NCBI RefSeq assembly: GCF_000732605.1 | Contig: NZ_JPME01000010.1 | Location: forward strand, 310,036 to 374,035 | Direction: 5' to 3' | Origin: Lacrimispora celerecrescens | GTDB lineage: Bacteria; Bacillota; Clostridia; Lachnospirales; Lachnospiraceae | Length of the DNA: 64,000 bases | In this document: positions 11,004 to 61,822 of the stretch, in pieces | Layout: the number at the start of each line of letters is the position of its first letter | How positions within the stretch are numbered: position 1 is the first letter of the stretch | The notes under the pieces: generated by a model | Told to the model about the DNA's origin: nothing | Databases searched by the model: none | What the model saw: the letters and a program-made list of their open reading frames with translations, nothing else | Made by a program: the position numbers and the translations under genes

Positions 11004-11716
11004 TGTATAGAAATAAAACTTTTTTGGCTATCATACCTGCCCGGAGTGGTTCAAAAGGAATCATCGATAAAAACATCCGGGAAATCAATCATAAGCCCCT
11101 CTTGGCATATACGTTGGAAGCCTGTAAGCGTTCCGGAATATTCGATGATATCGTGGTATCTACAGACTCTGTAAAATATGCGGAGATTGCAGAGCGGTTC
11201 GGGGCCAGTGTGCCCTTTCTGCGCCCAAAGGAACTGGCTACGGATCAGGCTTCCTCCAACGACGTCATACTGCACGTCATCAATGGGCTGGGACAGCTTG
11301 GAAACGTGTTTGATTGCTTCATGCTTTTACAGCCCACCTCTCCCCTTAGAAACGAAATACATATGATGAAAAGCGCTGATATCCTGTTAGAAAATGATGC
11401 CGATTCTGTCGTCAGTATCTGCAAGTCAGATTCCCACTCCTATTTAACCGTTGAGCTTACGGAGGAAGGAAGATTGAAGGCTTTATTTTCGGATAAAAAA
11501 CAGGTCAGAAGACAGGATATACCGCCGAATTACAGAATTAACGGGGCTATTTACCTGGCTCTGACCAGTTATTTTATGAAGTATAAAAGCTTTTACGAGG
11601 GTAAAACCCTGCCCTATTTGATGAACATCTTTGATTCCATTGATATCGATGATGATTTCCAGTTAAAAATAGCGGAATTACTTCTCATTGATAAAAATTT
11701 ATCAAATCCATTCTAA
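11003..11716 (+). CDS. legF: CMP-legionaminic acid synthetase (LegF/PtmB-like)
   Basis: A 237-residue cytidylyltransferase that activates the nine-carbon sugar with CTP. The motif LAIIPARSGSKGI near the start is the family's nucleotide-binding loop, followed by KPLLAYTLEA and LLQPTSPLR. I choose the ATG at 11003, which overlaps the stop of legG (TAATG) and has GGAG 8 bases ahead; the ATG at 10991 would lack one. This is the last gene of the glycosylation operon. The next gene is convergent, 11 bases away. Confidence 0.88.
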   Translation: MYRNKTFLAIIPARSGSKGIIDKNIREINHKPLLAYTLEACKRSGIFDDIVVSTDSVKYAEIAERFGASVPFLRPKELATDQASSNDVILHVINGLGQLGNVFDCFMLLQPTSPLRNEIHMMKSADILLENDADSVVSICKSDSHSYLTVELTEEGRLKALFSDKKQVRRQDIPPNYRINGAIYLALTSYFMKYKSFYEGKTLPYLMNIFDSIDIDDDFQLKIAELLLIDKNLSNPF

Positions 11717-11727: not shown

Positions 11728-12870
11728 TTAATTGCCTTCCGTAATCAGTCCCAGGGCCAGGAGGGCACTTTTTTCAAGCTCATCTTCCGTTGTAAATTCA
11801 TTCGGAGTATGGACCTCATTCATTCCGCAGGATACTACGATCCCCCGAATCCCTCCCTTGACAAAGTGATTGTTGTCACTGCCGCCCAGAGTATACTGGG
11901 TGGAGCCTTTTAAACCAAGGGACCGGCAGACTCGCTTGAACCGTTCCACCACTTCTTCACTGTCACTGATTTCATAGGCTTCGATCTGTTTTTCCACAGT
12001 AATCTCCAGGCTGCCGCCATATCCTGCCGCATTACCTTCAAAGATCTCCTTCAGTCTATTCCATTCAGACAGAGCCTTATGATCCTTTAAGCTACGGATC
12101 TCTCCTGACACAACGCATTCATCGGAAACAATATTGGTTTGTTTTCCGCCGCTTATTTTTCCAATGTTTACGGTTGTCTCATCGTCTACCCAGCCTTGCT
12201 TTAATTGGGATATGGCATGGGCTGCGATTTCAATGGCATTGATCCCCAGCTGAGGACAAAAGCCTGCATGGGCATTTTTGCCCTTGACCTTAATTTCAAA
12301 GGAAAGAAGGGTGGGCGCTGAGGTTGCAGCCAGGCCAATCTCCCCACTCAAATCAAATACATAAGCCTGTTTTGACCTTATTTTAGAATAATCAATCAGC
12401 TGGCTTCCTTTTCCGTAGTTCTCTTCTGCTACCGGAAAAAGGACCTCAATATCTCCATGAGGAAGGTTATTTTCCTTAACCACCCGGACTGCCTCTAATA
12501 TGGCAACGATTCCGGAAAGGTCGTCGGCACCAAGCACCGTATCCCCTTCCGAGGTAATCTTCCCCTTCGCATCCTGGACTGCGCGTTTCCCCTTGCCAGG
12601 CTTTACCGTATCCATATGGGCCGACAGCAAAATGGGGGCAGAACCTGTGGTTCCCTTTAAATATCCGTAAAGATTTCCTGTGGGAGCGGCGGTTCCATAT
12701 TCCGGCAGCTTTTCTTTCAGTCGGTGACCGGCATCATCTTCCCGTACCTCAAATCCAAGCTGTTTTAATTCGCCTGTTAAATAGTCCGCAATTTCCCTTT
12801 CCTGATAAGTTTCGGAATCGAATTCCACCATTTTTTTAAATTGGCTAACCAACCTGCTTCTTTGAATCAT
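11728..12870 (-). CDS. M20-family peptidase, peptidase-T-like
   Basis: A 380-residue zinc metallopeptidase of the PepT-like group. Metal ligands are visible at SAHMDTV (His85, with Asp87), GADDLSG (Asp116/117) and AEENYG (catalytic Glu149, Glu150), with a late GGSDNNHF. It should release amino acids from small peptides in the cytoplasm. It is the last gene of the long minus-strand sulfur operon, 34 bases after a GST-like gene, which suggests its substrate is a cysteine-containing dipeptide such as Cys-Gly. That role is inference. Confidence 0.8.
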   Translation of the reverse strand: MIQRSRLVSQFKKMVEFDSETYQEREIADYLTGELKQLGFEVREDDAGHRLKEKLPEYGTAAPTGNLYGYLKGTTGSAPILLSAHMDTVKPGKGKRAVQDAKGKITSEGDTVLGADDLSGIVAILEAVRVVKENNLPHGDIEVLFPVAEENYGKGSQLIDYSKIRSKQAYVFDLSGEIGLAATSAPTLLSFEIKVKGKNAHAGFCPQLGINAIEIAAHAISQLKQGWVDDETTVNIGKISGGKQTNIVSDECVVSGEIRSLKDHKALSEWNRLKEIFEGNAAGYGGSLEITVEKQIEAYEISDSEEVVERFKRVCRSLGLKGSTQYTLGGSDNNHFVKGGIRGIVVSCGMNEVHTPNEFTTEDELEKSALLALGLITEGN

Positions 12871-12904
12871 ATCGCCACCTGCTCTTTTCCTATGGGTTCA
12901 TATA

Positions 12905-13921
12905 TTAATTATCATATCTTTTAAACTTTTCTTCAGGTGTTTTGCTTAATTCCTTCCGGTTCTGCGGAGCAGACCAGATACCCTCGTAATCAATCTGGTT
13001 CACGAAACGGGAATTAAAATCCTGGAAAAAGGACTTGTTTTCTGACTGGGGCGCCGCAATATCCCGAAAGTACGTATTGTTTCTGAATGCAGGAATTTCA
13101 TATAAGTCCCTACAATATCCCCAGATGTTCTCGTAATCAACGATTCTGTGCTTAATGGGGCCCAGATTCCTGTAATAATGGGTATCAAACCTTGCCAGAG
13201 TCACAAAAAGTCTCACATCACTGTCAGTCACATAATCTCCAAATAAGAAACGGGCTTTGGAAAGGCGCTCTTCGATGAGATCCAGTGCATGATAAAAGTC
13301 TTCAAATGCCTCTTCATAAGCTATGATGGACTGCGCAAACATCATCCGGTAGGTCCCGTTATTTATATTGGGGAAAAGCCAGTCATTGTAATCATCGATC
13401 TCTTTTCTCAGTTCCTCCGGGTATAAATCCGGGGCATCCGGACTCTGGAAGGGACGGAACGCTGTTTCGAAGTAATTAGTCAGCCTGTGGTAATCATTAT
13501 TTACCACTTTTTCCGTAGTAACATCGACCAGGGCCGGCACGGTACAACGTCCTTCGTAATCCGGGTCTGCATGATAGTATAGTTCGCTTAAGTACTGAAC
13601 GCCTAGAACCGGGTCTTTTCTGTCCTCATTATACACGAATTCCCAGCCATATGCACGATTATCTTTGCTGTGGCCAACCAAATTGATCCCGATCGCCTCC
13701 TGAAGCCCTAATAACTCCCGCACAATGGAAGCACGGTTAGACCAATGGCAGCCTTTTGCCCAAAACAGCCGGTACCGGCCGCTTTCCGCCTTTAAATCAT
13801 TTTCACCATCTCCAAAGGGAGTGGTAAAACGGTTAAGCTGGCGGATAAATGCTCCTCTTTCATCGATTTCTTTCTCTATTTCCTTTGGGCGTACCTTTTG
13901 CCCGATGCTGCAGCTTGACAT
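12905..13921 (-). CDS. Glutathionyl-hydroquinone-reductase-like protein (Xi-class GST), paralogue 1
   Basis: A 338-residue protein of the ECM4/YqjG family, which reductively removes a thiol from S-aryl conjugates. It shows the family hallmarks: GRYRLFWAKGC with the active Cys58, an all-helical C-terminal half, and VTDSDVRLFVTLARFDTHYY. The usual CPWAHR is changed here to CHWSNR: the proline after the catalytic Cys is His, and the His becomes Asn. This makes it the most diverged of four copies in this operon. The host probably lacks glutathione, so another thiol (cysteine, or N-acetylcysteine conjugates) is the likely partner. The ribosome site is AGGAGGAG. It may have altered substrate range or lowered activity. 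Confidence 0.8.
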   Translation of the reverse strand: MSSCSIGQKVRPKEIEKEIDERGAFIRQLNRFTTPFGDGENDLKAESGRYRLFWAKGCHWSNRASIVRELLGLQEAIGINLVGHSKDNRAYGWEFVYNEDRKDPVLGVQYLSELYYHADPDYEGRCTVPALVDVTTEKVVNNDYHRLTNYFETAFRPFQSPDAPDLYPEELRKEIDDYNDWLFPNINNGTYRMMFAQSIIAYEEAFEDFYHALDLIEERLSKARFLFGDYVTDSDVRLFVTLARFDTHYYRNLGPIKHRIVDYENIWGYCRDLYEIPAFRNNTYFRDIAAPQSENKSFFQDFNSRFVNQIDYEGIWSAPQNRKELSKTPEEKFKRYDN

Positions 13922-13968
13922 ATGAATCTCCTCCTATTGGCTTAATATTAACGGAATACGGAACCCCT

Positions 13969-14925
13969 TTATTTAAATTTAATTTTATCCCTGCCATGAG
14001 GTGTTTTCCAGATGGAAAGGTCCGGTCCCTTAGGCACGATGCCAAAGGGATTTGTGGAAACAGCACATAAATGATAGTGTTTTTTGATAGCTTCAAAATC
14101 CGTCGTATCACCAAATCCCGGCTGTTCATATAGATCCCTTGCATATCCCCAGAGATTGGGAAAATCGGAAATCAAGCTGCGGTTTAATAAAAAGCCATTA
14201 TAGTAGGCCACATCAAAGCGGGCAAGGGTCACATACAAACGAATATCGGATTCTGTGATGTTAGCTCCAAACAGGTATCGGCTGTGGCTTAAGCGTTCTT
14301 CCAGCCAGTCAAGACGGCTGAAGACAAGATGATATGCCTCCTCATAAGCTTCCTGACTTCTGGCAAAACCTGCTTTGTAGACTCCGTTGTTAATTTCATG
14401 GAAAAGAATATCATTTAATGCATCAATCTCTTCTCTTAATTCAACCGGATATAAATCCGGTGCTCCTGCCTTATGATATCTCTTCCACTCCACCTCCCAG
14501 TATCTGGTCAGGTTAAAGTAATCGTTATTTACGACTTTTCCTGTTGTTAAATCCACGACTGCAGGAACGGTAAACCTTCCCTTATATCCGGGATCTGCTT
14601 TTAAATAGGCTTCACTTAAATACCGGATCTTTAATACCGGATCTTCCTCATTTTCATCCAGAGTAAATGCCCAATCGGTCCGCTCCACATCAGGTCTTAC
14701 CGGATCCAGTGTGCCCAGGCTGATTGCATCCTGAAGACCACGCAGGCTCCTTACAATAACAGAGCGGTGGGCCCATGGGCAGGCAGGGGACCAAAACAGG
14801 CGGTATCTTCCTGCTTCTACAGGCAGCTGCCCTTCATCTGTTCCAAATGGTGTTATAAACTGGTTTTTCTGCCGGTTGAATTTTCCGTCTTTTTCAATTT
14901 CATCCTTTATAAATTTCTTTGACAT
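13969..14925 (-). CDS. Glutathionyl-hydroquinone-reductase-like protein (Xi-class GST), paralogue 2
   Basis: A 318-residue member of the ECM4/YqjG family with the canonical active site CPWAHR (Cys49) after GRYRLFWSPA, plus the C-terminal ITESDIRLYVTLARFD that places the catalytic tyrosines. I start at the ATG at 14925, preceded by GAGGTGA. An in-frame ATG at 14949 has AGGTT directly abutting it and is less likely. The gene lies between the GNAT acetyltransferase and paralogue 1. It probably uses a small thiol to cleave an S-aryl or S-alkyl conjugate. Confidence 0.85.
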   Translation of the reverse strand: MSKKFIKDEIEKDGKFNRQKNQFITPFGTDEGQLPVEAGRYRLFWSPACPWAHRSVIVRSLRGLQDAISLGTLDPVRPDVERTDWAFTLDENEEDPVLKIRYLSEAYLKADPGYKGRFTVPAVVDLTTGKVVNNDYFNLTRYWEVEWKRYHKAGAPDLYPVELREEIDALNDILFHEINNGVYKAGFARSQEAYEEAYHLVFSRLDWLEERLSHSRYLFGANITESDIRLYVTLARFDVAYYNGFLLNRSLISDFPNLWGYARDLYEQPGFGDTTDFEAIKKHYHLCAVSTNPFGIVPKGPDLSIWKTPHGRDKIKFK

Positions 14926-14956
14926 AGTTATCACCTCATCCTTTTTCATAACCTGC

Positions 14957-15445
14957 CTAATGTTTCATATCGTCTCGCCCGTATTCATCGACAAAGCGGT
15001 ATTTTTCCGGAAGCAGGAATCCTTCTTTTTTCATCCAGTTTAAAGAATCTTCTGATCCACGGAATATGCTCATGGCTGTCTTATTCCTGCGAAATCCCAT
15101 TTTTTCGTATAGAGCGACTGTCCTGGGATGGGTGTATAGGATGACATTCTGGCCCTTAACCTGATCAAGCAGCAATTCAATCAGTTTTCTGCCGATTCCG
15201 TATCCCTGATATTCTTCATCAAGAGCAATATTATAGATCGCTGCCTGGCAGACACCATCGGATAAGGCTCTTCCGACACCCACGATCCTCCCTTTGTCAT
15301 AGACAAACACCACGGCATAGCTGTTTGTAAAGATGGTCTCCTGATCCTTTGCAGACCGGTCCGACAGCCCGGAACGCCGCAGCACATCGGCGACCTCCTG
15401 CCAGTGAATCCCTTCCTTTGTTATCTTGTAGGTTATATCATTCAT
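14957..15445 (-). CDS. GNAT-family N-acetyltransferase
   Basis: A 162-residue acetyltransferase with the acetyl-CoA motif IALDEEYQGYGIGRKLIELL (about residues 73-92) and a late Y-E-K-M-G-F. The ribosome site AGGAGG is inside the end of the previous gene, with which it overlaps by eight bases. In Bacillus, SnaA/SnaB of the ytm and yxe operons are GNAT enzymes that N-acetylate S-conjugated cysteines before cleavage. Its position here, with a cystine-type ABC importer and an M20 deacylase, fits the same job. The substrate is inferred from context only. Confidence 0.82.
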   Translation of the reverse strand: MNDITYKITKEGIHWQEVADVLRRSGLSDRSAKDQETIFTNSYAVVFVYDKGRIVGVGRALSDGVCQAAIYNIALDEEYQGYGIGRKLIELLLDQVKGQNVILYTHPRTVALYEKMGFRRNKTAMSIFRGSEDSLNWMKKEGFLLPEKYRFVDEYGRDDMKH

Positions 15446-16460
15446 GGGAGACCTCCTGAAGTTTCATCTTTTTATCCGGGTCCCTGCTTAAGATTTCCCG
15501 CCCTGACGGCAGCTCCCAGCCACTGACATCAGGTCCCTTGGCAACTATGGAATATACATTACCCCATAGAGGCTTTAAATGGGGCGATAACTGATAATGC
15601 TTTTTGTATACATCAAAACAGGTGCTTTCCTTTATTTCCGGTACCTGATATAAATCTCTGGCATAGGGCCACAAATTCTTATACTCCACCAGCCTTTTTT
15701 TGTTTGCATGAAAAACCTGATGATAGACCACATCAAATCTAGCCAGAGTCGGATACAGCCTGATATCGGAGTCCGTGATATAATCTCCGAATAAAAACCG
15801 CCTTGATTCCAGTCTTCGATCCAGGAGATCCATTGCCTCAAAAAAGGCCTCAAATGCCTTCTCGTATGCTTCCTGAGATCTGGCAAAGCCTACTTCATAA
15901 ACGCCATTGTTGATTCTTTTGAAAATGAAATGGTTTAGCTCATCGATTTCTGCCCGAAGTTCAGCCGGATAAAGCTCCGGTGCACCTACTTTATGATATG
16001 GCTTCCATGCAGTTTCAAAATAAACCGGGATCCAGAAGTGATCATTATTCACACCTTTTCCTGTGGTTGTATCTGCCAGAATGGGAACGGTGGGCCGCTC
16101 CTTATAATCCCCGTCAGGAGTATCCCTGTCATAAATTTCTTTTAAATAGTGGATTCCCAAAACAGGATCCTTTTCATCCGGATCCTCTGTAAATACCCAG
16201 CCTTTGGGATCACGGAAAATTCCCGTTGTTCCAAGACTGATAACCTTATCCAGTCCCAAAAGCCTTCTGGCTATTATGACCTTGTGCGCATGAGGGCAGG
16301 CCGGCATCCAAAGCAGACGGTACCGGCCGGCTTCCACCGGCCACTCCCCTTCTTCCCTGCCAAATTTCTTTTTGAAAAAATTATCCTGGACCTTGATTTC
16401 CCCATCCGTCTGAATCTGATGACGAAATGTGCTCTCAAATACTTCGATTCCTTCTGACAT
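15438..16460 (-). CDS. Glutathionyl-hydroquinone-reductase-like protein (Xi-class GST), paralogue 3
   Basis: A 340-residue family member with active site CPHAHK (Cys55), so the Trp of CPWAHR is His and the final Arg is Lys. The flanking GRYRLLWMPA and the C-terminal ITDSDIRLYPTLARFDVVYH are conserved. It has an insertion around residue 95 compared with paralogue 2 (KDPVLGIHYLKEIYD region). GGGGGAATGAT precedes the ATG. It sits directly after the ABC transporter genes. Each of the four paralogues has a different residue set at the active site, which suggests different leaving groups rather than simple dosage. Confidence 0.83.
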   Translation of the reverse strand: MSEGIEVFESTFRHQIQTDGEIKVQDNFFKKKFGREEGEWPVEAGRYRLLWMPACPHAHKVIIARRLLGLDKVISLGTTGIFRDPKGWVFTEDPDEKDPVLGIHYLKEIYDRDTPDGDYKERPTVPILADTTTGKGVNNDHFWIPVYFETAWKPYHKVGAPELYPAELRAEIDELNHFIFKRINNGVYEVGFARSQEAYEKAFEAFFEAMDLLDRRLESRRFLFGDYITDSDIRLYPTLARFDVVYHQVFHANKKRLVEYKNLWPYARDLYQVPEIKESTCFDVYKKHYQLSPHLKPLWGNVYSIVAKGPDVSGWELPSGREILSRDPDKKMKLQEVSHE

Positions 16461-16513
16461 ATCATTCCCCCTGTCAAGCGGATATTTATAATCCGCGCTC
16501 CTACTTGATTCGG

Positions 16514-17278
16514 TTATATCGTATAATCAGCGCTTTCCAACATGTGAATCTTTACTAAAAACTCCTTTAACCGCTGGTTTTTCGGATTATCAAAGATCTC
16601 TTTCGGTGTTCCGTCAGCTACAATTTTTCCGTTTTCCAGGAATATGATCCGATTGGCCACGTTCCTCACAAAATTCATCTCATGGGTTACAAGGAGTATG
16701 GTATTGCCCTCCTGGGCTGCCTTTTTTATGGTAATCAGAACTTCGCTCACCAGCTCCGGGTCCAGAGCCGAGGTCGGTTCATCCATAAGAAGCAGTTTCG
16801 GATCCATGGCCAGCGCCCTTGCGATGGCCACCCTTTGCTGCTGCCCTCCGGATAAATGCCTGGGATAATGGGACAAACGGTCCCCCATCCCTACCTTCTG
16901 CAAGTGCTTTTCTGCAATGCTCCTGGCCTCGCTTTTCTTTAACTTCTTTACAACCATAAGCCCTTCCATTACATTCTCCAGGGCGGTCCGGTTCTTGAAC
17001 AGATTAAACTGCTGGAATACCATTTCCGTATTCTTCCGCAGCTCCAGTTTTTCCCTGGCTGATCTTGTAGTAAGGTCGATTTCCTGATCGTTTATCTTGA
17101 TGGTTCCTTTTTCCGGTTTTTCAAGCAGATTGATGGAACGGAGCAGGGTGGACTTACCGGTTCCTGATGGTCCGATGATGGCGACCACATCACCTTCGTG
17201 TATGACCAGATCAATGTTATCCAGCACCACGTTCTTGCCAAATTTTTTACTTAATCCACGAATTTCAATGACGCTCAC
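16514..17278 (-). CDS. Polar amino-acid ABC transporter ATPase (cystine-type)
   Basis: A 254-residue ABC ATPase of the GlnQ/TcyC type. Walker A is GPSGTGKST (about 36-44), the signature is LSGGQQQRVAIARA, and Walker B is LLLMDEPTSALDPE, followed by a conserved H-loop (LLVTHEM). It energises uptake through the permease directly upstream (2 bases apart) and the lipoprotein further up. Related transporters (TcyKLMN, YxeMNO) import cystine and S-conjugated cysteine derivatives, which fits the operon. Confidence 0.9.
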   Translation of the reverse strand: MSVIEIRGLSKKFGKNVVLDNIDLVIHEGDVVAIIGPSGTGKSTLLRSINLLEKPEKGTIKINDQEIDLTTRSAREKLELRKNTEMVFQQFNLFKNRTALENVMEGLMVVKKLKKSEARSIAEKHLQKVGMGDRLSHYPRHLSGGQQQRVAIARALAMDPKLLLMDEPTSALDPELVSEVLITIKKAAQEGNTILLVTHEMNFVRNVANRIIFLENGKIVADGTPKEIFDNPKNQRLKEFLVKIHMLESADYTI

Positions 17279-17280
17279 AC

Positions 17281-18087
17281 TTATTCCTCCTTTCCCTTTC
17301 CCTTTTCCTGTCCATGCTTTTTGGACAGGGCCCGCCCCGTTTTACCGGGTGTAAAGGTATGTCCGCAGGACTCTTCTGTCGAAACCGTTTCCGGAACGCT
17401 CAACTTTTTTTCTAAATATACAAATAGCCGTTCAATAAAAATTGTCATAACCCAGTAGATGATAGCCAGAGAACAATATGCTTCAAAATACCGGTAGCTG
17501 TTTCCCGCAAGAATCTTACCCTGAGCCGTTATCTCAACAACCGAGCAGGTAAATGCAAGGGAGGTCCCTTTTACCAGGCTTATGAGGGAGTTTCCCAGGG
17601 AAGGGAGGGCTACTGTCACTGCCTGGGGAAACAGTACCCTGCGAAATATCTGGAACCCGTTCATTCCAAGGGCCTTGGCTGCCTCAACCTGCCCTTTTTC
17701 CACGGACTGTATGGCTGCCCGTATGGTTTCTGAATCAAAGGCAGATTGATTAAGCCCCAGGGCTACGATCGCAAAAATAATTGACGGGATTCCATTTACG
17801 TTATAAGAAGTTCCATTGTAAAAGTTATAATATTTCAAAGCGATAGGAATTCCAAAATACGTAAGATATAGCTGGACGATAATCGGGGTTCCCCGTACGA
17901 CCGAAACAAATAAAGTACATAATTGCCGCAGGATGGGAACATTGTGGATTTTTACCACAGCGATTAAAAGCCCTATCACCCACCCGATTATCAGGGCAAC
18001 TCCCGTCAGCTGCAGCGTTACAGGCAAGTATTTCAGCAATGCAGGAATTTCCGTGAACACCAGCCGCCAGTCAAATATTTTGCTCAT
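17281..18087 (-). CDS. Polar amino-acid ABC transporter permease
   Basis: A 268-residue HisMQ-type membrane permease with about five transmembrane helices and the EAA loop seen as QVEAAKALGMNGFQIFRRVL. The C-terminal tail is unusually long, charged and Lys/Gly-rich (KKHGQEKGKGKEE), trailing into the next gene's ribosome site. It forms the membrane channel for the ATPase and lipoprotein on either side. Confidence 0.9.
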   Translation of the reverse strand: MSKIFDWRLVFTEIPALLKYLPVTLQLTGVALIIGWVIGLLIAVVKIHNVPILRQLCTLFVSVVRGTPIIVQLYLTYFGIPIALKYYNFYNGTSYNVNGIPSIIFAIVALGLNQSAFDSETIRAAIQSVEKGQVEAAKALGMNGFQIFRRVLFPQAVTVALPSLGNSLISLVKGTSLAFTCSVVEITAQGKILAGNSYRYFEAYCSLAIIYWVMTIFIERLFVYLEKKLSVPETVSTEESCGHTFTPGKTGRALSKKHGQEKGKGKEE

Positions 18088-18105
18088 CTTGTTCCTCCGG
18101 TTTTA

Positions 18106-19035
18106 TTAATAAGATGGGGAGTAATCGGATCCAAACCATTTTAAGTTAATTTCCTTAGACGTTCCGTCCTCAATCACTTCATTTAACGCCTTGTCGATAT
18201 CCTCTACCAGTTTCTCATTCCCCTTGCTGACAATCAGATAGCTGAAGGGTTCTGCCATTAAGTCCTTTGAAAGGGTGTTGCTGATAGAAGCTCCTTCCAC
18301 ATTAAAGTTGAATTCTTTCTGATAATACTCGAACATTGGTTTATCCATTAACACGAAATCGTATTTCCCAGCTTCCACATCCTGAATCTGCAGCACAAGG
18401 TCTTCATCACTGTATTCGATTGCAATGGGGTTCTCGGCGTGAGTTGCGTTATAGTTTTCCAGGGCTGTGGTGATATTGATTCCCGCCGAGGAAATGGTCT
18501 TTAAGCCTGCAAGATCATCCCATGTCTCTATGCCTGCTGCCTTTTCATCGTTCTTTGCAAAGATGGCAACGTACTCATTGGCAAAGATCGGATCGGTAAA
18601 TAGATACTTTTCCTTCCTGCTCTCATTCTTTGCAAAATTATTTACACCGATCTGGTAACGGTCAGAATCCAGGCCTGCAAAAATTGAGGTAAAATCAGTT
18701 ACTTCGATTTCAAGCTTATATTGGGGGAGCCGGTCGAAAATAGCTTTGATCAGTTCAATGTTGTGACCGGTGAGCTGGTTGCTGCTGTCCACAAAAGTGA
18801 ACGGCTTTGGAGAACCGCCGGTTGCTGCATGAATGACTACCGGTTCTGTTGTGCCGGCCGCCTCACTGCTCTGCTCCTGTGCTGCCGGTGCTGCTGAACT
18901 CTCTGTCTTTGTTGTTTCCTCAGCTGCTTTGGTTACCGTTTGTTTGGTACTGCTCTTGCAGCCGGTCAGGGCTCCTAATACGGCCACTGCTGTAAGCACC
19001 CCCAGGATTGATTTTCCTGCAATTTTTTTCTTCAT
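18106..19035 (-). CDS. Amino-acid-binding lipoprotein of the ABC transporter
   Basis: A 309-residue extracellular binding protein. The ATG at 19035 has GAGGAG 8 bases ahead; the longer frame (19062) does not. The signal ends in the lipobox LTGC, followed by a Ser/Thr/Glu/Ala-rich linker (about residues 25-60), then a periplasmic-binding-protein type 2 fold (ATGGSPKPFTFVDSSNQLTG; ITDFTSIFAGLDSDRYQIGVNN). The fold belongs to the cystine/polar amino acid group. It should capture the substrate outside the membrane. Confidence 0.88.
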   Translation of the reverse strand: MKKKIAGKSILGVLTAVAVLGALTGCKSSTKQTVTKAAEETTKTESSAAPAAQEQSSEAAGTTEPVVIHAATGGSPKPFTFVDSSNQLTGHNIELIKAIFDRLPQYKLEIEVTDFTSIFAGLDSDRYQIGVNNFAKNESRKEKYLFTDPIFANEYVAIFAKNDEKAAGIETWDDLAGLKTISSAGINITTALENYNATHAENPIAIEYSDEDLVLQIQDVEAGKYDFVLMDKPMFEYYQKEFNFNVEGASISNTLSKDLMAEPFSYLIVSKGNEKLVEDIDKALNEVIEDGTSKEINLKWFGSDYSPSY

Positions 19036-19109
19036 AATTTTCTCTCCTCTTTTATCAATCATTTCCTTGATTTCAGTTATCTCCTTCCTGTTACCGGACG
19101 GAGTCTATG

Positions 19110-19934
19110 CTATTGCAATTCCTGGGGAACAAACCACAAGCCTGAGTTGTTCTTTTTCATATACTCTTTCAATTCGTCTGAGTGATAAGCAGCTGCGATG
19201 TCCTTTGCCCATTTTGTATCTTTGTTCTCTTCTTTTACAACCACCTGTAAAATCAGATGATCCAAAATATCTTCTTGTAAAATGGCGGTAGATGGATCGA
19301 TGCCTGCATTATAAACAATGCTTCCTGTGATCACTGCAAAATCAAAATCATCCAGAGCAGGAGGGATATTTAACGAATCCATTTCCACAAAATTGATGTT
19401 GTACGTGTTTTCAATGATGTCGGATTGTTTTACCGACTCAAGGGGAACATCCGGGTTAAGCTTAATCCAGCCGGCCTTTTGAAGAAGGGCATAAGCACGT
19501 GCCGTATTCGATGCATCATTTGGCACTGCAACGATCGCGCCATCCGCTATCGCATCCAATGAGGTATGCTTTGCAGAAAACAGTCCGGCGGGAACGGTGG
19601 GGATGGGGGAGATGGGAACAAGGTTTCCATTTTGCTTGTTGTTGAAATTTTCGGCATAAGCAGTATGCTGTTCCACGTTAAAGTCAATTTCACCTTCATT
19701 CAACGCGGTATCATTCTGCAAAAGGTCTGAAAAATCAACCACTTCCAGCTTATACCCCTGTTTTTCCAAGATGGGCTTTACTGCTTCTTCAAATAATACC
19801 GTATAGGGTCCTGCAGCCTTGCCGTATTTCAATGTTTTTTTGTCCTGGCCCAGCTTGCTTCCGTTATTGGCTGAGCAGCCGGCAACAGTGACGGCAAGTA
19901 ATGCAGCGATGATAATGAATCCAATTTTTTTCAT
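19110..19934 (-). CDS. metQ: Methionine-type binding lipoprotein (MetQ/NlpA family)
   Basis: A 274-residue lipoprotein with lipobox VAGC (Cys20). It has the NlpA-family core: a GxAAGPY start, a VEVVDFSD-like strand, NVEQHTAYAENFN, and VAVPNDASNTARAYALLQ. This last motif is highly conserved in MetQ. It delivers methionine, or related sulfur amino acids and their derivatives, to MetNI. It lies 14 bases after metI in the operon. Confidence 0.9.
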   Translation of the reverse strand: MKKIGFIIIAALLAVTVAGCSANNGSKLGQDKKTLKYGKAAGPYTVLFEEAVKPILEKQGYKLEVVDFSDLLQNDTALNEGEIDFNVEQHTAYAENFNNKQNGNLVPISPIPTVPAGLFSAKHTSLDAIADGAIVAVPNDASNTARAYALLQKAGWIKLNPDVPLESVKQSDIIENTYNINFVEMDSLNIPPALDDFDFAVITGSIVYNAGIDPSTAILQEDILDHLILQVVVKEENKDTKWAKDIAAAYHSDELKEYMKKNNSGLWFVPQELQ

Positions 19935-19948
19935 AATTAGTTCCTCCT

Positions 19949-20617
19949 CTATTCACGTGATCTGACACGTTTTGATAAATAATTTCCAAGCCCTTGAATC
20001 AGCTGAACAAACACGATCAATACGATTACGGTCGCAACCATTAAGGGAGTGTTAAATTGCTGATACCCATAGGTCAATGCCAGGTTGCCAACACCGCCTC
20101 CGCCTATGGCTCCCGCCATGGCGGTTGCACCAAGGAGACCGATGGTACCTGTGGTCAGGGATAAGATCAGCGAGCCCAATGCTTCCGGCAGCAAAAAGTG
20201 CCAAATGACCTGCACCGGAGTTGCCCCCATGGCCTCTGCCGCTTCAATGATTCCCTTATCAACCTCCAGCAGCGAGCTTTCTACCAGGCGGGAAAGAAAT
20301 GGCGTAATGTAAAACACCAGTGAAACCAAAGCGGCCTGGGTGCCGATCCGGGTACCCACAATGATTTTTGTTAAAGGCATAATAGCCACCAGCAAAATAA
20401 TATAGGGCACGGAGCGCACGATGTTAATGGTGTAATTGATCAGGGTATAGACGACTTTGTTTTGCAGGATACCACCCTTACGCGTAATGGTAAGTAATAT
20501 ACCGAGGGGAATCCCAAGAAGTGATCCCAGCACCAGCCCCCAGAACAGCATATAAACGGTCTGGCCGGCAGCAATTACCATCTGTTCGCTTGTAATGCCT
20601 AAATATTGCTCAATCAT
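19949..20617 (-). CDS. metI: Methionine-type ABC transporter permease MetI
   Basis: A 222-residue permease with five membrane segments and the MetI EAA loop (EAAEAMGATPVQVIWHFLLPEA). It overlaps the end of metN by eight bases, indicating translational coupling. It pairs with MetN and MetQ on either side. Confidence 0.92.
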   Translation of the reverse strand: MIEQYLGITSEQMVIAAGQTVYMLFWGLVLGSLLGIPLGILLTITRKGGILQNKVVYTLINYTINIVRSVPYIILLVAIMPLTKIIVGTRIGTQAALVSLVFYITPFLSRLVESSLLEVDKGIIEAAEAMGATPVQVIWHFLLPEALGSLILSLTTGTIGLLGATAMAGAIGGGGVGNLALTYGYQQFNTPLMVATVIVLIVFVQLIQGLGNYLSKRVRSRE

Positions 20618-21659
20618 TGCGATCCTCCTCTCCCCCGGTCAAATGTAAGACTTCCACATAGACTCCGGAATCTTCAATAAATTGCTGTACCTCGTCAAGC
20701 CTTTGAGCGGAACCAAACACCTGCACAATCATAACGCTGAACACAACTCCCTGAAGTTCACAAACAGTGGCAAACAATATGCTGTTTTCCATGTGGTATT
20801 CTGCGCTTATGCGGTACAACAGAGGTTTTCCGGCAATATTTCCTTGAAAACGCAGTCGGAAGATCCGGTTCTCCCCCTGATATTCAAGAATTTCCCGGGC
20901 AAGGCTCCCTGGTATGCTGTCGTCAATTACGGTCTTTACAAAACTCCTGGTGATTTTATGCTGTGGATTACCGAATACTTGAAGCACCGTTCCCTGCTCT
21001 AACACCCTGCCGTTATCCATAACCGCTACTTTGTTACATATATCACAAATAACGTGCATTTCATGAGTGATCAGGAGAATCGTAACATTTAGCTCCCTGT
21101 TTATTTTTTTCAATAGCTCCAGAATAGAATCCGTGGTCTTAGGATCCAAAGCACTTGTAGCCTCGTCGCAAAGTAAGATGCTGGGATTTGTGGCAAGGGC
21201 GCGGGCTATGCCGACCCTTTGTTTTTGACCGCCTGAAAGCTTTGATACATTGGTGTGGATTTTATCCTCAAGTTCTACAAAATGCAAGAGCTCTTTTACC
21301 CGCTTATCTATGTCCTTTTTCGGCACTTTGTTTAATACCAGAGGCGCCGCTACGTTCTGAAAAACAGATTTGGACTGCAGCAGATTAAATTGCTGGAAAA
21401 TCATGCCGATATTCTTTCTCAGCATTCGTAAGTCCGGTTTTGACAGGGTGGTGATGTCCGTGCCATCAACCAGCACCCGTCCTTCTGAAGGGCGTTCCAA
21501 TAAATTTACCAGACGTACCAGGGTTGATTTACCTGCTCCGCTGAAGCCTATCACTCCGAAAATATCGCCCTTTTCAACCGTAAGGCTGACCTGCCGCAGG
21601 GCATGAACTTCACCAGAAGCAGAATCAAACCGTTTACTTACGTTTTGAATTTCAATCAT
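20610..21659 (-). CDS. metN: Methionine-type ABC transporter ATPase MetN
   Basis: A 349-residue ATPase: Walker A GFSGAGKST, signature LSGGQKQRVGIARA, Walker B LLCDEATSALDP. A C-terminal NIL domain (about 265-340) is the regulatory methionine-sensing part found in MetN. It overlaps the M20 gene's stop by eight bases. A second importer in the same operon suggests that both disulfide/polar and thioether compounds are taken up. Confidence 0.93.
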   Translation of the reverse strand: MIEIQNVSKRFDSASGEVHALRQVSLTVEKGDIFGVIGFSGAGKSTLVRLVNLLERPSEGRVLVDGTDITTLSKPDLRMLRKNIGMIFQQFNLLQSKSVFQNVAAPLVLNKVPKKDIDKRVKELLHFVELEDKIHTNVSKLSGGQKQRVGIARALATNPSILLCDEATSALDPKTTDSILELLKKINRELNVTILLITHEMHVICDICNKVAVMDNGRVLEQGTVLQVFGNPQHKITRSFVKTVIDDSIPGSLAREILEYQGENRIFRLRFQGNIAGKPLLYRISAEYHMENSILFATVCELQGVVFSVMIVQVFGSAQRLDEVQQFIEDSGVYVEVLHLTGGEEDRND

Positions 21660-22833
21660 CAGATGCCTCCTCCTGCGCAGGAATCAATTCACCGCTTTTT
21701 ATGGCAAAAAGAGTTTTTTGTGCTAAAGCTGCAAAATAATCGATGGCCGGCTTCAATGCATTGGTGTCAACTTGAAATTTCGGGTGGTGGTTGGGATAGG
21801 ACTCACCGGTTCCTATGCGAATGAAAAATCCTGGTATCTTTTCCTGATAAAAGGCAAAGTCTTCTCCGCCGAGAGACGGGGAAGAAGTTTTGACCTTCAG
21901 TCCCTGTTCTTTTGCAACGGCTGCAGCAACAGGCTCAAAACACGGGGCATTATTTGTGGCAGGAGGCCCTGCAAGCCATTCAATTTCTGCTTCTGCCCCC
22001 TGTGACAATGCAATATGCTGAACCAGCGTCCGGAAGCGTTCTTCGATCAACCGTCGATTGTGTCTGCCCATGGTGCGTACCGTTCCTTCAAGCTCTGCTG
22101 TCTGTGGGATAACATTCCATGTGTTTCCCACCGTAACACGGGTTATGCTGAGCAGGCCCTGAGAAAACGGATCAATGTTACGGCTGACGATGCTTTGGGC
22201 AAGGGTTACAATCTGTGAGGCGGTAAGTACAGGATCAATTCCGTCCTGAGGATGAGCCGCATGAGTGCCCTTTCCCGTAAGCCTGACTGTAAACCTGTCA
22301 ACAGCGGCAGTCACACTTCCGGAAACAATTCCTACGGTTCCAACCGGGAGTGTGATATCGGTATGCAGGCCGTAGATCCCGTCAACATCATCAAGAACCT
22401 TTGTTTTGATTACTTCCATGGCACCGACAGAGGATTCCTCGGCGGGCTGGAACAGGATTTTCACCGTTCCGTGCAAATGTTCCTGCTGCTCCTGTAATTC
22501 TTTTGCCACATACAGCATAACTGTGGTATGAAAGTCGTGACCGCAGGCGTGCATCTTTCCAGTTATGGCAGATGAATAGGATAATTCGGTTTCTTCCTGT
22601 ACAGGCAGTGCGTCGATATCGCAGCGCAGTGCGATCACAGGTCCGTCGTGTGCACCTTGTATTTCTGCTACCAATCCTGTTTTTAAATCCAAATCCAGAA
22701 TACGGACATTGTAATATTCTAAAAACTCACGAATTCGACCAGTTGTCTCGTATTCTTCAAAGGATAGTTCGGGATTTTGGTGAAACCAATGAAAGGTTTC
22801 TGTAACCTGGTTATAAAACGTAGAATCAGACAT
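21652..22833 (-). CDS. M20-family amidohydrolase / N-acyl-amino-acid deacylase (YxeP/SndB-like)
   Basis: A 393-residue M20D amidohydrolase of the HipO/YxeP group. The metal-binding ACGHDFH (Cys97, His99), the catalytic pair AEE (Glu132/133), and HTD and HAAHP histidines are all present, with SLGGEDFAFYQEKIPG near the end. Close Bacillus relatives (SndA/SndB) remove the acetyl group from N-acetylcysteine after S-conjugate cleavage. Here it is the second gene of the operon, next to GST-like paralogue 4, so the same deacetylation step is the best guess. Confidence 0.87.
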   Translation of the reverse strand: MSDSTFYNQVTETFHWFHQNPELSFEEYETTGRIREFLEYYNVRILDLDLKTGLVAEIQGAHDGPVIALRCDIDALPVQEETELSYSSAITGKMHACGHDFHTTVMLYVAKELQEQQEHLHGTVKILFQPAEESSVGAMEVIKTKVLDDVDGIYGLHTDITLPVGTVGIVSGSVTAAVDRFTVRLTGKGTHAAHPQDGIDPVLTASQIVTLAQSIVSRNIDPFSQGLLSITRVTVGNTWNVIPQTAELEGTVRTMGRHNRRLIEERFRTLVQHIALSQGAEAEIEWLAGPPATNNAPCFEPVAAAVAKEQGLKVKTSSPSLGGEDFAFYQEKIPGFFIRIGTGESYPNHHPKFQVDTNALKPAIDYFAALAQKTLFAIKSGELIPAQEEASDD

Positions 22834-22850
22834 GAATGCTCCAGCCTTTC

Positions 22851-23831
22851 CTATATTCTCTTACCGAATTTTTCATCCCTGTTATTCGGTTCATCCCAGA
22901 TGGAAACATCCGGTCCCAGGGGAAGAATGTTATATGGATTGTGTCCATGGCTTCCCAGGAGATATCCCCTCTTTATGGAATCAAAATCCGTGGCTTCTTT
23001 AAATGCCGGAATCGTATACAAGTCCTTTGCATAATTCCACAGATTATCAAAATCAGCAATGCGGTTCCTGTTTGTCTTATGGCTGAAATAATAAGCCACA
23101 TCAAACCGGGCAAGGGTTACGTACAACCGAATATCAGAATCCGTGAGCCGGTCTCCGAACAGATATCTCCCCTTTGAAAGCCGCTCTTCCAGCCAGTCAA
23201 GCCTTTGAAACAGCACATCATACGCAGCTTCATATTCCTTTTGGGACTGGGCAAACCCTGCTTTGTATACCCCGTTGTTTACTTCATGGAATAATATCAC
23301 ATTGAGCTCATCGATTTCCGTTCTTAAGTCCTCGGGATACAGGTCCGGTACACCAGGCTTATGAAATGGTTTCCATGCAGTCTCCCAATAATTTGTTAAA
23401 CGATGATAATCGTTGTTGACCACCTTTCTGGTCTTTAAATCTACTACAGTGGGAACGGTTGCCCTTCCTTCATATTCCGGATCCGTGGCTGCATAAATTT
23501 CCGGAAGATAGCGGATTTTAAGGACTGGATCCACACCCCCCTCGTCAAGGGAAAATTCCCAGCCGTTTTCTGTTCTTACGGGACTTACCTTGCCGACACT
23601 GATCGCATCTTCCAGCCCCAGAAGCTTTAGGGCAATGACCTGTCTCGTGGCCCACGGGCAAAGGGGCGTCCATATGAGCCGATACCGTCCGGCTTCCACT
23701 GGAAGTTCTCCTTCCCCTTCTCCAAAAGGTGTGACAAAATGGTTATCCTGCCTTACAAAGGCTCCTGTTTCAGATACTTCGTGGGTATCTTCCGTGGTCG
23801 CTACCTTTCCAAATCTCTCTTCTATTGCCAT
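22851..23831 (-). CDS. Glutathionyl-hydroquinone-reductase-like protein (Xi-class GST), paralogue 4
   Basis: A 326-residue family member with active site CPWATR (Cys58), where the His of CPWAHR is Thr. GRYRLIWTPL precedes it, and LTDSDIRLYVTLARFDVAYY lies in the helical domain. I start at the ATG at 23831, preceded by GAAGGAAG; an upstream in-frame TTG at 23864 would lie in the terminator's U-tract region. It is the first structural gene of the 13-gene operon and stands directly behind the Cys-rich leader and its terminator, so it is the gene most directly controlled by cysteine supply. Confidence 0.85.
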   Translation of the reverse strand: MAIEERFGKVATTEDTHEVSETGAFVRQDNHFVTPFGEGEGELPVEAGRYRLIWTPLCPWATRQVIALKLLGLEDAISVGKVSPVRTENGWEFSLDEGGVDPVLKIRYLPEIYAATDPEYEGRATVPTVVDLKTRKVVNNDYHRLTNYWETAWKPFHKPGVPDLYPEDLRTEIDELNVILFHEVNNGVYKAGFAQSQKEYEAAYDVLFQRLDWLEERLSKGRYLFGDRLTDSDIRLYVTLARFDVAYYFSHKTNRNRIADFDNLWNYAKDLYTIPAFKEATDFDSIKRGYLLGSHGHNPYNILPLGPDVSIWDEPNNRDEKFGKRI

Positions 23832-23862
23832 ATTTTCTTCCTTCTCTCCTAAATTTGAGTAC

Positions 23863-23891
23863 AAAAAAAGCAGATGCCCTCTGACACCTGC
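23863..23891 (-). terminator. Attenuator-type intrinsic terminator before the GST/ABC operon
   Basis: On the minus strand GCAGGTGT pairs with GCATCTGC around the loop CAGAGG (23870-23891), followed by seven T. It lies between the leader peptide stop (23895) and the first structural gene (ATG at 23831), where a conditional terminator is expected. A short ACCTG within the leader (codons 21-23) could pair with CAGGT of the 5' arm as an antiterminator. Confidence 0.8.
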
Positions 23892-23894
23892 CTT

Positions 23895-23990
23895 CTATGC
23901 AGAATAGCCATGCACAGGAATTTCAGGTTTCAAGACACAAGTATAAAGACCATTTTTTACGCAATTACAGCAACAACACATCTTCAACAT
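23895..23990 (-). CDS. Cysteine-rich leader peptide (putative attenuator peptide) 1
   Basis: A 31-codon reading frame starting at the ATG at 23990, with AAAGGAG (23996-24002) at ideal spacing. It begins MLKMCCCCNC, so residues 5-8 and 10 are Cys, with another Cys at 18. The tail (KPEIPVHGYSA) is ordinary. Such a run of Cys codons, directly followed by an intrinsic terminator and then by cysteine-acquisition genes, is the classical layout of ribosome-stalling attenuation as in amino-acid biosynthetic leaders. A metal-binding mini-protein is an alternative, but a second unrelated leader with the same CCCC run stands before cysK. Confidence 0.75.
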   Translation of the reverse strand: MLKMCCCCNCVKNGLYTCVLKPEIPVHGYSA

Positions 23991-24144: not shown

Positions 24145-25077
24145 TTAGCCGAATAAAGGAGTGGACAAATACCTGTCACCGGAATCTGGCAGCAAGACAA
24201 CGATCGTCTTTCCCTTGTTTTCCGGTCTTTCCGCCAACAGCTTTGCGGCTTTTAGTGCAGCACCGGAAGAGATTCCAACCAGAATTCCTTCGGATACTGC
24301 AAATGTCTTACCTTCCTTAAATGAATCCTCATTCTCAACGGTAATTATTTCATCGTAAATTCCGGTATCCAGGACTTCAGGTACAAAGCCTGCACCAATT
24401 CCCTGAATCTTGTGAGGTCCTGGCTTGCCTCCGGAGAGTACCGGACTGCTTGCCGGTTCAACCGCTACGATTTTGACTTCCGGTTTCTTTTCCTTTAAAT
24501 ATTGGCCTACACCTGTAATAGTTCCGCCTGTGCCAACACCAGCTACAAAAATATCCACTTCCCCAGCCGTCTGTTCCCAGATCTCCGGACCGGTGGTCTC
24601 CTTGTGCACTTTGGGATTTGCCTGGTTTACAAACTGTCCCAGGATAATAGAACCAGGTATGCTGGTCTTTAACTCCTCTGCTTTCTCAATGGCCCCCCTC
24701 ATGCCCTTTGCTCCCTCAGTCAGCTCCAGTTCCGCGCCATAGGCCTTTAATAAGTTTCTTCGCTCCACGCTCATGGTATCTGGGAGTGTCAGAATCGTCC
24801 GATAGCCTTTGGCTGCCGCAACGGCTGCCAAACCGATTCCGGTATTTCCTGAGGTCGGCTCAATAATGGTTGCACCAGGCTTTAAGATCCCTTTTTCTTC
24901 TGCATCCTCGATCATGGCAAGAGCAATTCTGTCTTTTACGGAACCGGCAGGATTTAAGTATTCCAGCTTAGCCAGAAGTGTAACGCCCTCGATTCCTTCC
25001 TTTGCACTGTATCGGTTTAATTTGAGTATCGGTGTTCCTCCAATGAGCTCCACTGCGCTTTCTTTAATTGTTCCCAT
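24145..25077 (-). CDS. cysK: Cysteine synthase A
   Basis: A 310-residue PLP enzyme making cysteine from O-acetylserine and sulfide. PLP is bound by Lys48 in NPAGSVKDR; the substrate loop TSGNTG is at 75-80, with [10 protein letters not shown] for the cofactor phosphate and SSGAAL late in the protein. It has its own Cys-rich leader peptide and terminator upstream and an Rrf2-type operator-like site, so its expression seems tied to cysteine supply in two ways. GGAGGT precedes the ATG. Confidence 0.95.
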
Positions 25078-25126: not shown

Positions 25127-25160
25127 AAAAAAGAGCGGCTGCCTATTACGGCACCTGCTC
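25127..25160 (-). terminator. Attenuator-type intrinsic terminator before cysK
   Basis: On the minus strand GAGCAGGTGCC pairs with GGCAGCCGCTC (two mismatches) around GTAATA, then six T. It stands 64 bases after the leader-2 stop and 50 bases before the cysK start. Its 5' arm contains CAGGTG, which can alternatively pair with an upstream CATCCTG (25198-25204), giving a possible antiterminator. Confidence 0.78.
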
Positions 25161-25223
25161 CACAGTTCTGCTGAAAATATGGAAATTTCACATATTCCAG
25201 GATGTCAGGCATCATAATAAGCA

Positions 25224-46991: not shown

Positions 46992-47074
46992 CAAACAATT
47001 CCTTCCTTCGACCACCTCTAAAAGGTCCGGTCATTTATATTCTTACATTTTTAAAGGCGATCAATTCCCGTCAA

Positions 47075-47173: not shown

Positions 47174-47258
47174 TTTTCTCAATTATTATACAGGTTTCTT
47201 CTCTGTTGTCAAGTTTTTATCTCATATAAATAGTGTTGGATAATCTCCTGTTTTTCTG

Positions 47259-61695: not shown

Positions 61696-61702
61696 AGCTC
61701 AA

Positions 61703-61796: not shown

Positions 61797-61822
61797 ACAT
61801 TTCTGCACAAAGGAGGATATAT

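Follow-up and report, generated by a model that had tools for sequence, protein, structure and literature searches.

A predicted cysteine-starvation operon with glutathionyl-hydroquinone-reductase-like proteins in Lacrimispora celerecrescens

A run of minus-strand genes in a 64,000-nucleotide stretch of the Lacrimispora celerecrescens genome (contig NZ_JPME01000010.1; the whole stretch is called the window here, and positions are counted from its first letter) appears on balance to be a cysteine-starvation operon, one that would salvage cysteine from S-conjugates without oxygen. The enzymes proposed to cleave the conjugates are four Xi-class glutathione S-transferase (GST) proteins resembling glutathionyl-hydroquinone reductases (GHR); all of the reactions are inferred. 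The gene group is real and recurring, and it is probably regulated by cysteine. The grouping is more than chance, because similar groupings recur in several phyla. A pathway of this kind was put forward in the original prediction, which was made from the letters of the window, and it is still the best explanation in outline, with the substrate now narrowed and regulation added.

The operon and its genes

The source genome is 5.04 Mb, in an assembly that is 99% complete. The operon is found at 11728–23831 of the window with all of its genes on the minus strand, and from the shared strand and the spacing the genes would form one transcript (Table 1). The closest named matches at the GHR locus are titled Hungatella, Lacrimispora and related Lachnospiraceae. 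Directly upstream of the operon is cysK. Importer, GNAT and M20 genes had been reported to stand together in the operon, and all are present – there are in fact two importers, one YtmK-like and one MetNIQ-like, and two M20 proteins of different subfamilies. The four GHR-like proteins were all found as well, and by profile search they are the only GHRs in the whole genome. For GHR4 the probable start is the ATG at 23831, preceded by AGGAGAGAAGG, and not that of a longer frame, opening with TTG, in the list of open reading frames (ORFs).

Table 1. Genes of the GHR operon, the neighbouring cysK gene and their predicted leader elements, in window positions
Feature	Position	Strand	Support
cysK leader-peptide ORF, 34 codons, four consecutive Cys codons (...NRCCCCQAVC...)	25224-25328	-	sequence
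Predicted cysK attenuator	25127-25265	-	segment 1 25258-25265 (overlaps Cys codons), segment 2 25203-25210, segments 3/4 terminator stem and T run ~25160-25127
cysK, cysteine synthase A	24145-25077	-	TIGR01139 445.8 bits, cut-off 351
GHR-operon leader-peptide ORF, 31 codons, MLKMCCCCNC..., MLKMCCCCNCVKNGLYTCVLKPEIPVHGYSA	23895-23990	-	sequence
Terminator-like hairpin and seven T, between leader and GHR4	23861-23897	-	fold of 23858-23900 (43 bases) -21.2 kcal/mol, z -5.0 vs shuffles
GHR4, Xi-class GST/GHR-like, motif C-P-W-A-T	22851-23831	-	4pts E 4e-88, YqjG 3r3e E 2.9e-63
M20 amidohydrolase, YxeP-like, candidate N-acetylcysteine deacetylase	21652-22833	-	1ysj (YxeP) E 6.8e-110; TIGR01891 354.9 bits, cut-off 153.75
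MetN-like ATPase with NIL domain (PF09383)	20610-21659	-	TIGR02314 396 bits, below cut-off 500
MetI-like permease	19949-20617	-	PRK10782 191 bits, below cut-off 212
MetQ/NlpA-family lipoprotein	19110-19934	-	PF03180 203 bits; NCBIfam MetQ models below cut-off
Family-3 substrate-binding protein, YtmK-related	18106-19062	-	PF00497 98 bits; 4eq9 E 1.7e-38, 4c0r 1.9e-36, 2o1m ytmK 2.5e-28
Amino-acid ATP-binding cassette (ABC) permease	17281-18087	-	PF00528
Amino-acid ABC ATPase	16514-17278	-	PF00005
GHR3, motif C-P-H-A-H	15438-16460	-	3m1g E 1.5e-82, YqjG E 6e-48
GNAT N-acetyltransferase	14957-15445	-	PF00583 52 bits; aligned with 23 cluster GNATs
GHR2, motif C-P-W-A-H	13969-14949	-	3m1g E 1.8e-99
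GHR1, motif C-H-W-S-N, without tyrosine equivalent to YqjG Y296	12905-13921	-	
PepT-like M20 peptidase/hydrolase	11728-12870	-	TIGR01883 302 bits, cut-off 274; 3gb0 E 5.9e-73

Cysteine-codon leaders

Cysteine starvation is predicted to control both the operon and cysK, because each follows a Cys-codon leader with a terminator. The presence of this arrangement before both is new here. The cysK leader has the predicted layout of a ribosome-controlled attenuator: the 1:2, 2:3 and 3:4 pairings partly exclude one another, a layout found in 8 related sequences. Among the listed loci of other genomes (numbered L001 onward), all seven others with cysK downstream have CCC in the leader (L001, L002, L005, L006, L007, L008 and L011). 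In the 1:2 stem, the Cys-codon region TGTCAGGC can pair with GCCTGACA through 8 pairs, 100% kept in the 8 sequences. Three of these have one compensatory change, TGT/ACA to TGC/GCA, which leaves the Cys codon synonymous. A covariation score as high came up in 9 of 500 shuffles, and the covariation amounts to one event in eight close sequences. GCCTG within segment 2 can pair with an invariant CAGGT, and segment 2 also with the 3' half of the terminator (94.5% of cells, no covariation). The fold of the cysK terminator has a z of -2.26.

Before the GHR operon the leader and terminator are present, and a possible antiterminator is seen only as an ACCTG/CAGGT match in the alignment. A Cys-rich leader frame with the same hairpin precedes the GHR operon in L001, L002, L005 and L008. 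Genome-wide, a pattern of Cys codons, CCTG and GCAGGTG at set spacings matches only these two leaders, and the reversed control gave 0; as the pattern was built from the two leaders, only the lack of further matches is informative. A scan for sigma-70 promoters and terminators found no more sites than in shuffles, with neither terminator among them, so the terminators rest on folding and conservation. Control by a T-box or an S-adenosylmethionine (SAM) riboswitch was rejected, Rfam having found neither in the window. Over 21 loci, Rfam found no T-box and one SAM riboswitch, downstream of the M20 gene of L025.

In L037 a leader ORF with four Cys codons (MRSYMRAYNQMMCCCCRYICG...), at 20305, is 138 bases before metN; the GHR operon of the same strain has no such leader.

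The GHR proteins

Each of the four window GHRs hits 3m1g, 4pts and YqjG with E values no worse than 6e-48 and is homologous over most of its length, and the structure predicted for GHR1 has the Xi-class fold. Residues were counted in YqjG numbering over 161 GHRs, namely the four in the window and the 157 of 184 locus frames that passed limits of length and score. The other 27 frames, omitted from the count and the tree for length, score or truncation, were 13 long proteins, 5 GHR2-GHR1 frames, 3 other long frames and 6 fragments; 24 of them carry the active-site motif C-x-x-[AS], and three fragments lack that end. C63, R130 and Y195 are kept in all 161, W96 in 158 and Y296 in 137. The catalytic cysteine is present in 174 of 174 aligned GHRs when the 13 long ones are added.

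The main departure from YqjG is at positions 147–149, which are N-E-S in that protein and mostly N-D-Y in the GHRs. Ser149 occurs in 0 of 161, and in 0 of 174 with the long ones (0 of 13), so that the glutathione-binding Glu-Ser pair is not kept and the term "glutathione-dependent" is not claimed for these proteins. In the yeast enzyme ScECM4, Glu and Ser are reported to bind the gamma-glutamyl part of glutathione, with Trp, Arg and Val holding the cysteine and glycine parts (PMC5063366); these residues were equated with YqjG 148–149, 96, 130 and 133 through motif spacing, ScECM4 itself being outside the alignment. Read from the alignment, the pattern fits a ligand that would have no gamma-glutamyl group, yet would have cysteine and a carboxylate.

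The paralogues differ in the active-site motif, which is C-[HN]-W-S-N in the GHR1 group (26 of 26), C-P-H-A/S in GHR3 (6 of 6) and C-P-H-S in the long proteins. A tree of the 157 locus frames, made by a quick method, has deep groups, with GHR1 and GHR3 each making up one side of a branch. Members labelled GHR1, 2, 3 and 4 were found both in Lachnospiraceae and in Treponema (L027).

The 13 long GHR3-like proteins (449–541 residues, motif C-P-H-S-N) all keep C63, W96, R130, Y195 and Y296, and have N-[DE]-[PA] at 147–149. This kind is absent from the window and occurs once per locus in L012–L016, L019–L022, L026, L033, L039 and L054. An apparent fusion, with GHR2 and GHR1 in one frame and both active-site motifs, is found at L006:10019-11995, L007:10019-11779, L009:280-2256, L010:3365-5341 and L011:10019-11995. 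L009 is from a metagenome-assembled genome titled Paenibacillaceae; the end of its GHR cluster is 80% identical to the window GHR2 and is fused as in Lacrimispora, and the taxon label is probably wrong.

Recurrence in other genomes

The named loci are the best 80 of 355 encoding stretches, 79 of them distinct, and are biased to close relatives of GHR2. Several are cut by contig ends, and neighbourhood counts are of genes within six of a GHR. A GNAT gene is near a GHR in 58 of the 79 loci, and 20 have GNAT, importer and M20 together. All 20 are among the 64 loci from outside the Bacilli, of which 43 have GNAT, 39 a family-3 binding protein or matching permease, 29 an M20, 37 a CysK/PatB/MetB-type enzyme and 49 two or more GHR frames. 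GNAT genes account for 60 of 215 immediate neighbours of GHRs vs 2 of 166 genes more than eight away, a ratio to be read as an upper estimate, since the GNAT models derive from cluster members and so pick up nearby genes more readily. The adjacency is repeated, with varied gene order, in loci titled Lachnospiraceae, Clostridium, Propionispira, Treponema, Acholeplasmatales and Gilliamella.

A sample of the Lachnospiraceae, the operon's own family, was drawn regardless of neighbourhood, and 17 of its 299 genomes (own included) had a GHR at E 1e-30. It gave 20 stretches from 15 of the 16 other genomes (G334, a partial match, was omitted), three of which repeat earlier loci; the sample is not fully independent, as named loci had also come from some of these genomes. 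Importer parts, GNAT, M20 or Cys/Met pyridoxal-phosphate (PLP) enzymes were found in 14 of the 17 non-duplicate stretches (14 genomes), and GNAT in nine.

Deacetylase, importers and acetyltransferase

The M20 protein at 21652-22833 is identical to YxeP of Bacillus subtilis at 177 of 378 residues (47%), with HACGHD, AEE, GED and HHP at matching alignment positions. ScmP (YxeP) is described as a bona fide N-acetylcysteine deacetylase (PMC12757645). The window MetN-like ATPase is 56% identical to a MetN adjoining a YxeP-like M20 in Paenibacillus. The M20-MetNIQ block is missing inside the GHR cluster of the closest relatives (L001, L002, L005–L008 and L011), and may be a separate cassette. The same order, a YxeP-like M20 gene and then MetN-, MetI- and MetQ-like genes, is seen in the window at 19110-22833 (minus strand) and in an aerobic Paenibacillus (L108:2701-7430, with an extra gene between MetI and MetQ).

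Against 15 Bacilli genomes, the window GNAT had 50%-identity matches only in two Paenibacillus, with weaker ones elsewhere. The four GNAT groups found beside GHRs (GNATa, U2, U3 and U13) are barely alike, the best cross-scores being about 20 bits by profile, and E 6e-4 or no match by BLAST. This low similarity suggests that an acetyltransferase may have been recruited beside GHR more than once. In 13 of 13 aerobic Bacilli loci (L044, L061–L064, L068–L070, L072, L075 and L077–L079) a GNAT of group U3 directly follows the GHR.

A tandem double GNAT domain of 311–334 residues is encoded at L012:7970-8965, L028:426-1361, L033:19704-20708, L038:2854-3828 and L052:1684-2664. Another ABC binding protein, group U5, is found in the GHR chains of L019, L021, L027, L030, L038, L042, L052, L053 and L062; in the one case tested, L052, it is NMT1-like, with a match just under the Pfam cut-off. 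A special function for the second CysK-like protein of other loci was rejected, as the three cases checked were all above the cysK cut-off.

Monooxygenases, lyases and thiol synthesis

The claim that there is no monooxygenase extends to the whole genome for the luciferase-type family, PF00296, the flavin monooxygenase family that was searched: it has 0 matches in the 99%-complete assembly. The family was also counted in 50 genomes, the operon's own and 49 of the 79 with named loci. It is found in 0 of 35 from outside the Bacilli (own and three Gilliamella included) and in 15 of 15 Bacilli. The split follows lineage and lifestyle, so it does not by itself demonstrate replacement.

In a monooxygenase-containing Paenibacillus stretch, L109, the order is LysR, binding protein, two permeases, ATPase, PF00296 protein, YxeP-like M20, oxidase-like protein, second PF00296 protein and another M20. 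A GNAT gene is encoded past LysR on the opposite strand, and the stretch has no GHR. Its ATPase is 58% identical to the window ATPase, its M20 47% identical to the window M20, and its GNAT 33% identical to a U3 GNAT, U3 being the group that partners GHR in Bacilli. By these similarities, importers, deacetylases and acetyltransferases of related families stand beside monooxygenases in one place and beside GHRs in another. From the second reference set (L108–L111), L109 was used for this comparison and L108, from the same Paenibacillus genome, for the M20-MetNIQ block. Monooxygenase stretches L084–L087, considered as ytm references, were dropped for lack of a notable family-3 importer, M20 or GNAT match.

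The genome's four matches to PF00206 (Lyase_1), which we take to be the superfamily of S-(2-succino) lyase (2SL), lie on contigs other than that of the window, and a 2SL-type lyase in the locus was rejected. In PMC9706529, 2SL is called a lyase class I.

The genome has no gene for glutathione synthesis of GshA type PF04262 or for bacillithiol synthesis (BshC, PF10079), in a search covering these two families but not PF04107-type GshA or mycothiol genes. Among 30 host genomes tested, PF04262 is found in 7 (including Gilliamella, 3 of 3) and missing in 23, and PF10079 is found in 5 (Bacilli).

Proposed pathway

At low Cys-tRNA, the ribosome would stall on the leader Cys codons, the antiterminator would form and the operon would be read. 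The YtmK-related importer, judged by its family, would take up cysteine S-conjugates or small peptides containing them, and the GNAT, from its family and its pairing with GHR, would N-acetylate the conjugate. The catalytic cysteine of a GHR would attack the sulfur of the N-acetylcysteine conjugate, free the arene and leave a mixed disulfide of enzyme and N-acetylcysteine. By analogy with ScECM4 and YqjG, a small thiol or thioredoxin would resolve this disulfide, and no oxygen would be needed. The YxeP-like M20, on strong homology, would then free cysteine, with the PepT-like M20 perhaps serving Cys-Gly forms. The four GHR paralogues would share out the range of aryl groups.

The likeliest natural substrates would be cysteinyl-(hydro)quinones from oxidising plant polyphenols. 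By analogy, these and S-aryl conjugates are likelier substrates than S-(2-succinyl) compounds, because GHR chemistry asks for a leaving carbon as in (hydro)quinones. In published work the substrates are (hydro)quinone thioethers and, in the case of some members, those of acetophenones (PMC5063366, PMC6815410). Of the two substrate types originally suggested, S-aryl conjugates are plausible on these reports, and S-(2-succinyl) compounds would not be natural GHR substrates. What stands of the pathway as first drawn is its architecture – a YxeP-type deacetylase, a YtmK-related binding protein, no PF00296, the GHR-GNAT-importer-M20 association and the Cys leaders; its enzyme chemistry, substrate and thiol are putative.

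A number of observations weigh against cysteine salvage by this route. The strongest reservations are that GHR and GNAT are paired in aerobes with monooxygenases, and that the chemistry is predicted from sequence. In the aerobic Bacilli loci, GNAT is present in 15 of 15, and a family-3 binding protein or matching permease, and M20, in 0 of 15. The idea that the chemistry suits an anaerobe does not hold cleanly, as these aerobic Bacilli have luciferase-type monooxygenases (15 of 15) together with a GNAT beside their GHR. GHRs are also present, at L043, in the Paenibacillus genome that has the monooxygenase cluster L109. Taken with the Bacilli pairs lacking importer and M20, this means that GHR is not a simple swap for the monooxygenase. 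Elsewhere, 12 of the 64 non-Bacilli loci have no GNAT, importer or M20 within six genes, and three of the 17 family stretches (L090, L105 and L107) have none of the sought genes. Just two of the 79 loci, L025 and L065, had an M20 recognisable as YxeP-like, the other M20-bearing loci having the PepT-like kind, whose solved relatives are named peptidase T or tripeptidase.

The enzymes also raise difficulties. In published work, GHRs require a leaving carbon of quinone or acetophenone type, and MstX of Corynebacterium glutamicum is reported to be inactive on glutathionyl-acetophenones (PMC6815410). Where ScECM4 has the acidic residue that binds the amine of glutathione, 159 of 161 GHRs have Asp, which would better suit a free amine than an N-acetylated one, and Y296, one tyrosine of the catalytic triad, is missing in the GHR1 group. 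As for regulation, longer leader folds are not unusual (z -0.95 for the GHR stretch 23850-23990 and -1.70 for the cysK leader), and the GHR-operon leader with hairpin was not seen in six of 10 loci (L003, L004, L006, L007, L011 and L037). The search for Cys leaders found them within the close Lachnospiraceae clade; ahead of cluster-type genes in the remaining loci, such Cys runs turned up just before metN in L037 and, doubtfully, in L048.

Alternative explanations

Detoxification is an unlikely reading. The GHRs would reduce intracellular quinone-thiol adducts and the GNAT would acetylate cysteine conjugates for mercapturate-type export, with the importer and Cys control replacing lost cysteine. 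MstX is reported to have roles in oxidative stress (PMC6815410), a rubrerythrin gene adjoins cysK in the window with a superoxide dismutase gene at 36463-37098, and all 15 aerobic Bacilli pairs do without importer and M20. Their pairing of GHR with GNAT alongside monooxygenases leaves some probability to detoxification or disulfide reduction. However, many anaerobe loci are tied to an importer (39 of 64) or M20 (29 of 64), which here is YxeP-like, and the clade has Cys-codon leaders; importer, M20 and leaders point inward, to cysteine gain.

Salvage from disulfides is improbable as well. The GHRs would then be one-cysteine thioltransferases that open imported mixed disulfides such as cystine or glutathione-cysteine disulfide, with GNAT and M20 handling N-acetylated or peptide forms. 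The best PDB relatives of the binding protein, 4eq9 and 4c0r, which are presumably glutathione-binding GshT proteins, count in its favour, as does the thioltransferase activity reported for ScECM4 and MstX (PMC5063366, PMC6815410). It leaves unexplained the regular presence of GNAT beside GHR and the several diverged GHR paralogues, and the Glu-Ser pair that binds glutathione is not kept.

It is very improbable that the GNAT acetylates cysteine rather than the conjugate, making N-acetylcysteine as a small-thiol cosubstrate that replaces glutathione for the GHRs. The lack of PF04262 and PF10079 in the genome would fit, as would GNAT beside GHR even where there is no M20, but Gilliamella has PF04262 in 3 of 3 genomes and still has GNAT in its GHR cluster, and the YxeP-type M20 of the same operon would undo the product. 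A loose sulfur-metabolism neighbourhood with no common pathway is scarcely credible: Cys/Met PLP enzymes and MetNIQ, as common sulfur genes, would cluster in any case, and GHRs are patchy in the family (17 of 299 genomes), but the adjacency is repeated in diverse lineages with varied order and GNAT is enriched next to GHR.

Comparison with known systems

In the yxe/scm pathway of B. subtilis, YxeL is the acetyltransferase, YxeK the monooxygenase, YxeP the deacetylase and YxeMNO the importer. The window is like this system in its importer, its GNAT (by family) and its YxeP-like M20 with 47% identity. It differs in the lack of PF00296 in the genome, the four GHRs, the second, MetNIQ-like importer and the extra PepT-like M20. 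The yxe loci reported with 2SL (PMC9706529) offer a parallel, an oxygen-independent replacement of YxeK in a locus that acetylates, cleaves and deacetylates; unlike them, the window genome has its PF00206 matches on other contigs, and GHR chemistry is thiol-dependent whereas that of 2SL is an elimination. Of 102 yxe loci in the same source, 11 contain neither of the enzymes YxeK and 2SL, and further genes are suggested to take part (PMC9706529, section 4). GHR is a concrete candidate for the cleaving enzyme of these loci.

As in the GHR/Xi-class GSTs YqjG of Escherichia coli, ECM4 of yeast and PcpF, the catalytic Cys, Tyr195, Trp96 and Arg130 are kept in the window GHRs. Unlike those proteins, they mostly have N-D-Y for N-E-S and are clustered with GNAT, importer and M20, and 23 of 30 hosts have no PF04262. 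Their nearest solved relatives (3m1g and 4pts) are actinobacterial, like C. glutamicum MstX (PMC6815410). 3m1g also has N-D-Y, and it carries Gly at the position of Arg130 in the present GHRs. The published role of MstX is in oxidative stress (PMC6815410), whereas the operon context here is one of cysteine acquisition.

Cys codons in a short leader are also reported for Actinobacteria cys/cbs operons (PMC1262725) and for uORFC-8-2, ascribed to cysS (PMC8632094), the latter with a terminator too. The window leaders differ in preceding cysK and the GHR operon, and in the 1:2, 2:3 and 3:4 pairings visible at cysK. In the titles and displayed abstracts of the open-licence papers that the searches listed, no link of GHR/Xi-class proteins to cysteine salvage was found; a 2024 review of thiol transferases, in the passages covered, mentions the Xi class for mycothiol only (PMC10950700).

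Setting and neighbouring features

Judged by their titles, many of the GHR loci belong to records of the rumen and gut; others are from Clostridium, Propionispira and Bacilli. Gilliamella is a bee-gut bacterium. Plant polyphenol oxidation would be a source of the cysteinyl-quinone substrate. The o-quinones formed by plant polyphenol oxidase are reported to bind protein sulfhydryls, and the same review notes that with a larger share of red clover, a plant rich in polyphenol oxidase, in the diet, cysteine and methionine become less degradable in the rumen (PMC4259006).

It is possible, although we do not consider it probable, that the operon belongs to a third, thiolytic and oxygen-independent class of S-conjugate salvage. 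Such a class would be found in plant-fed gut anaerobes and in Gilliamella, would recover cysteine from cysteinyl-(hydro)quinones of oxidised plant polyphenols with several Xi-class enzymes whose bound sulfur part has changed from glutathione to N-acetylcysteine (or Cys-Gly), and would in some lineages be turned on by an attenuator that reads cysteine. If true, this would be a gut microbial function tied to the chemistry of plant browning. The operon also suggests a use for GST-like proteins in bacteria in which no PF04262 or PF10079 gene was found, and the predicted attenuators make the regulation directly testable.

On the opposite strand, NeuB-family and cytidylyltransferase genes of a sialic/legionaminic-acid type pathway (8848-11716, plus strand) end 12 bases from the last gene of the operon. 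A fluoride riboswitch at 47109-47182 (minus strand) precedes a Voltage_CLC gene at 45765-47015. Another, at 61694-61770 (plus strand), is inside the early part of a Na/H exchanger frame (61598-63037), the true start of which is probably later.

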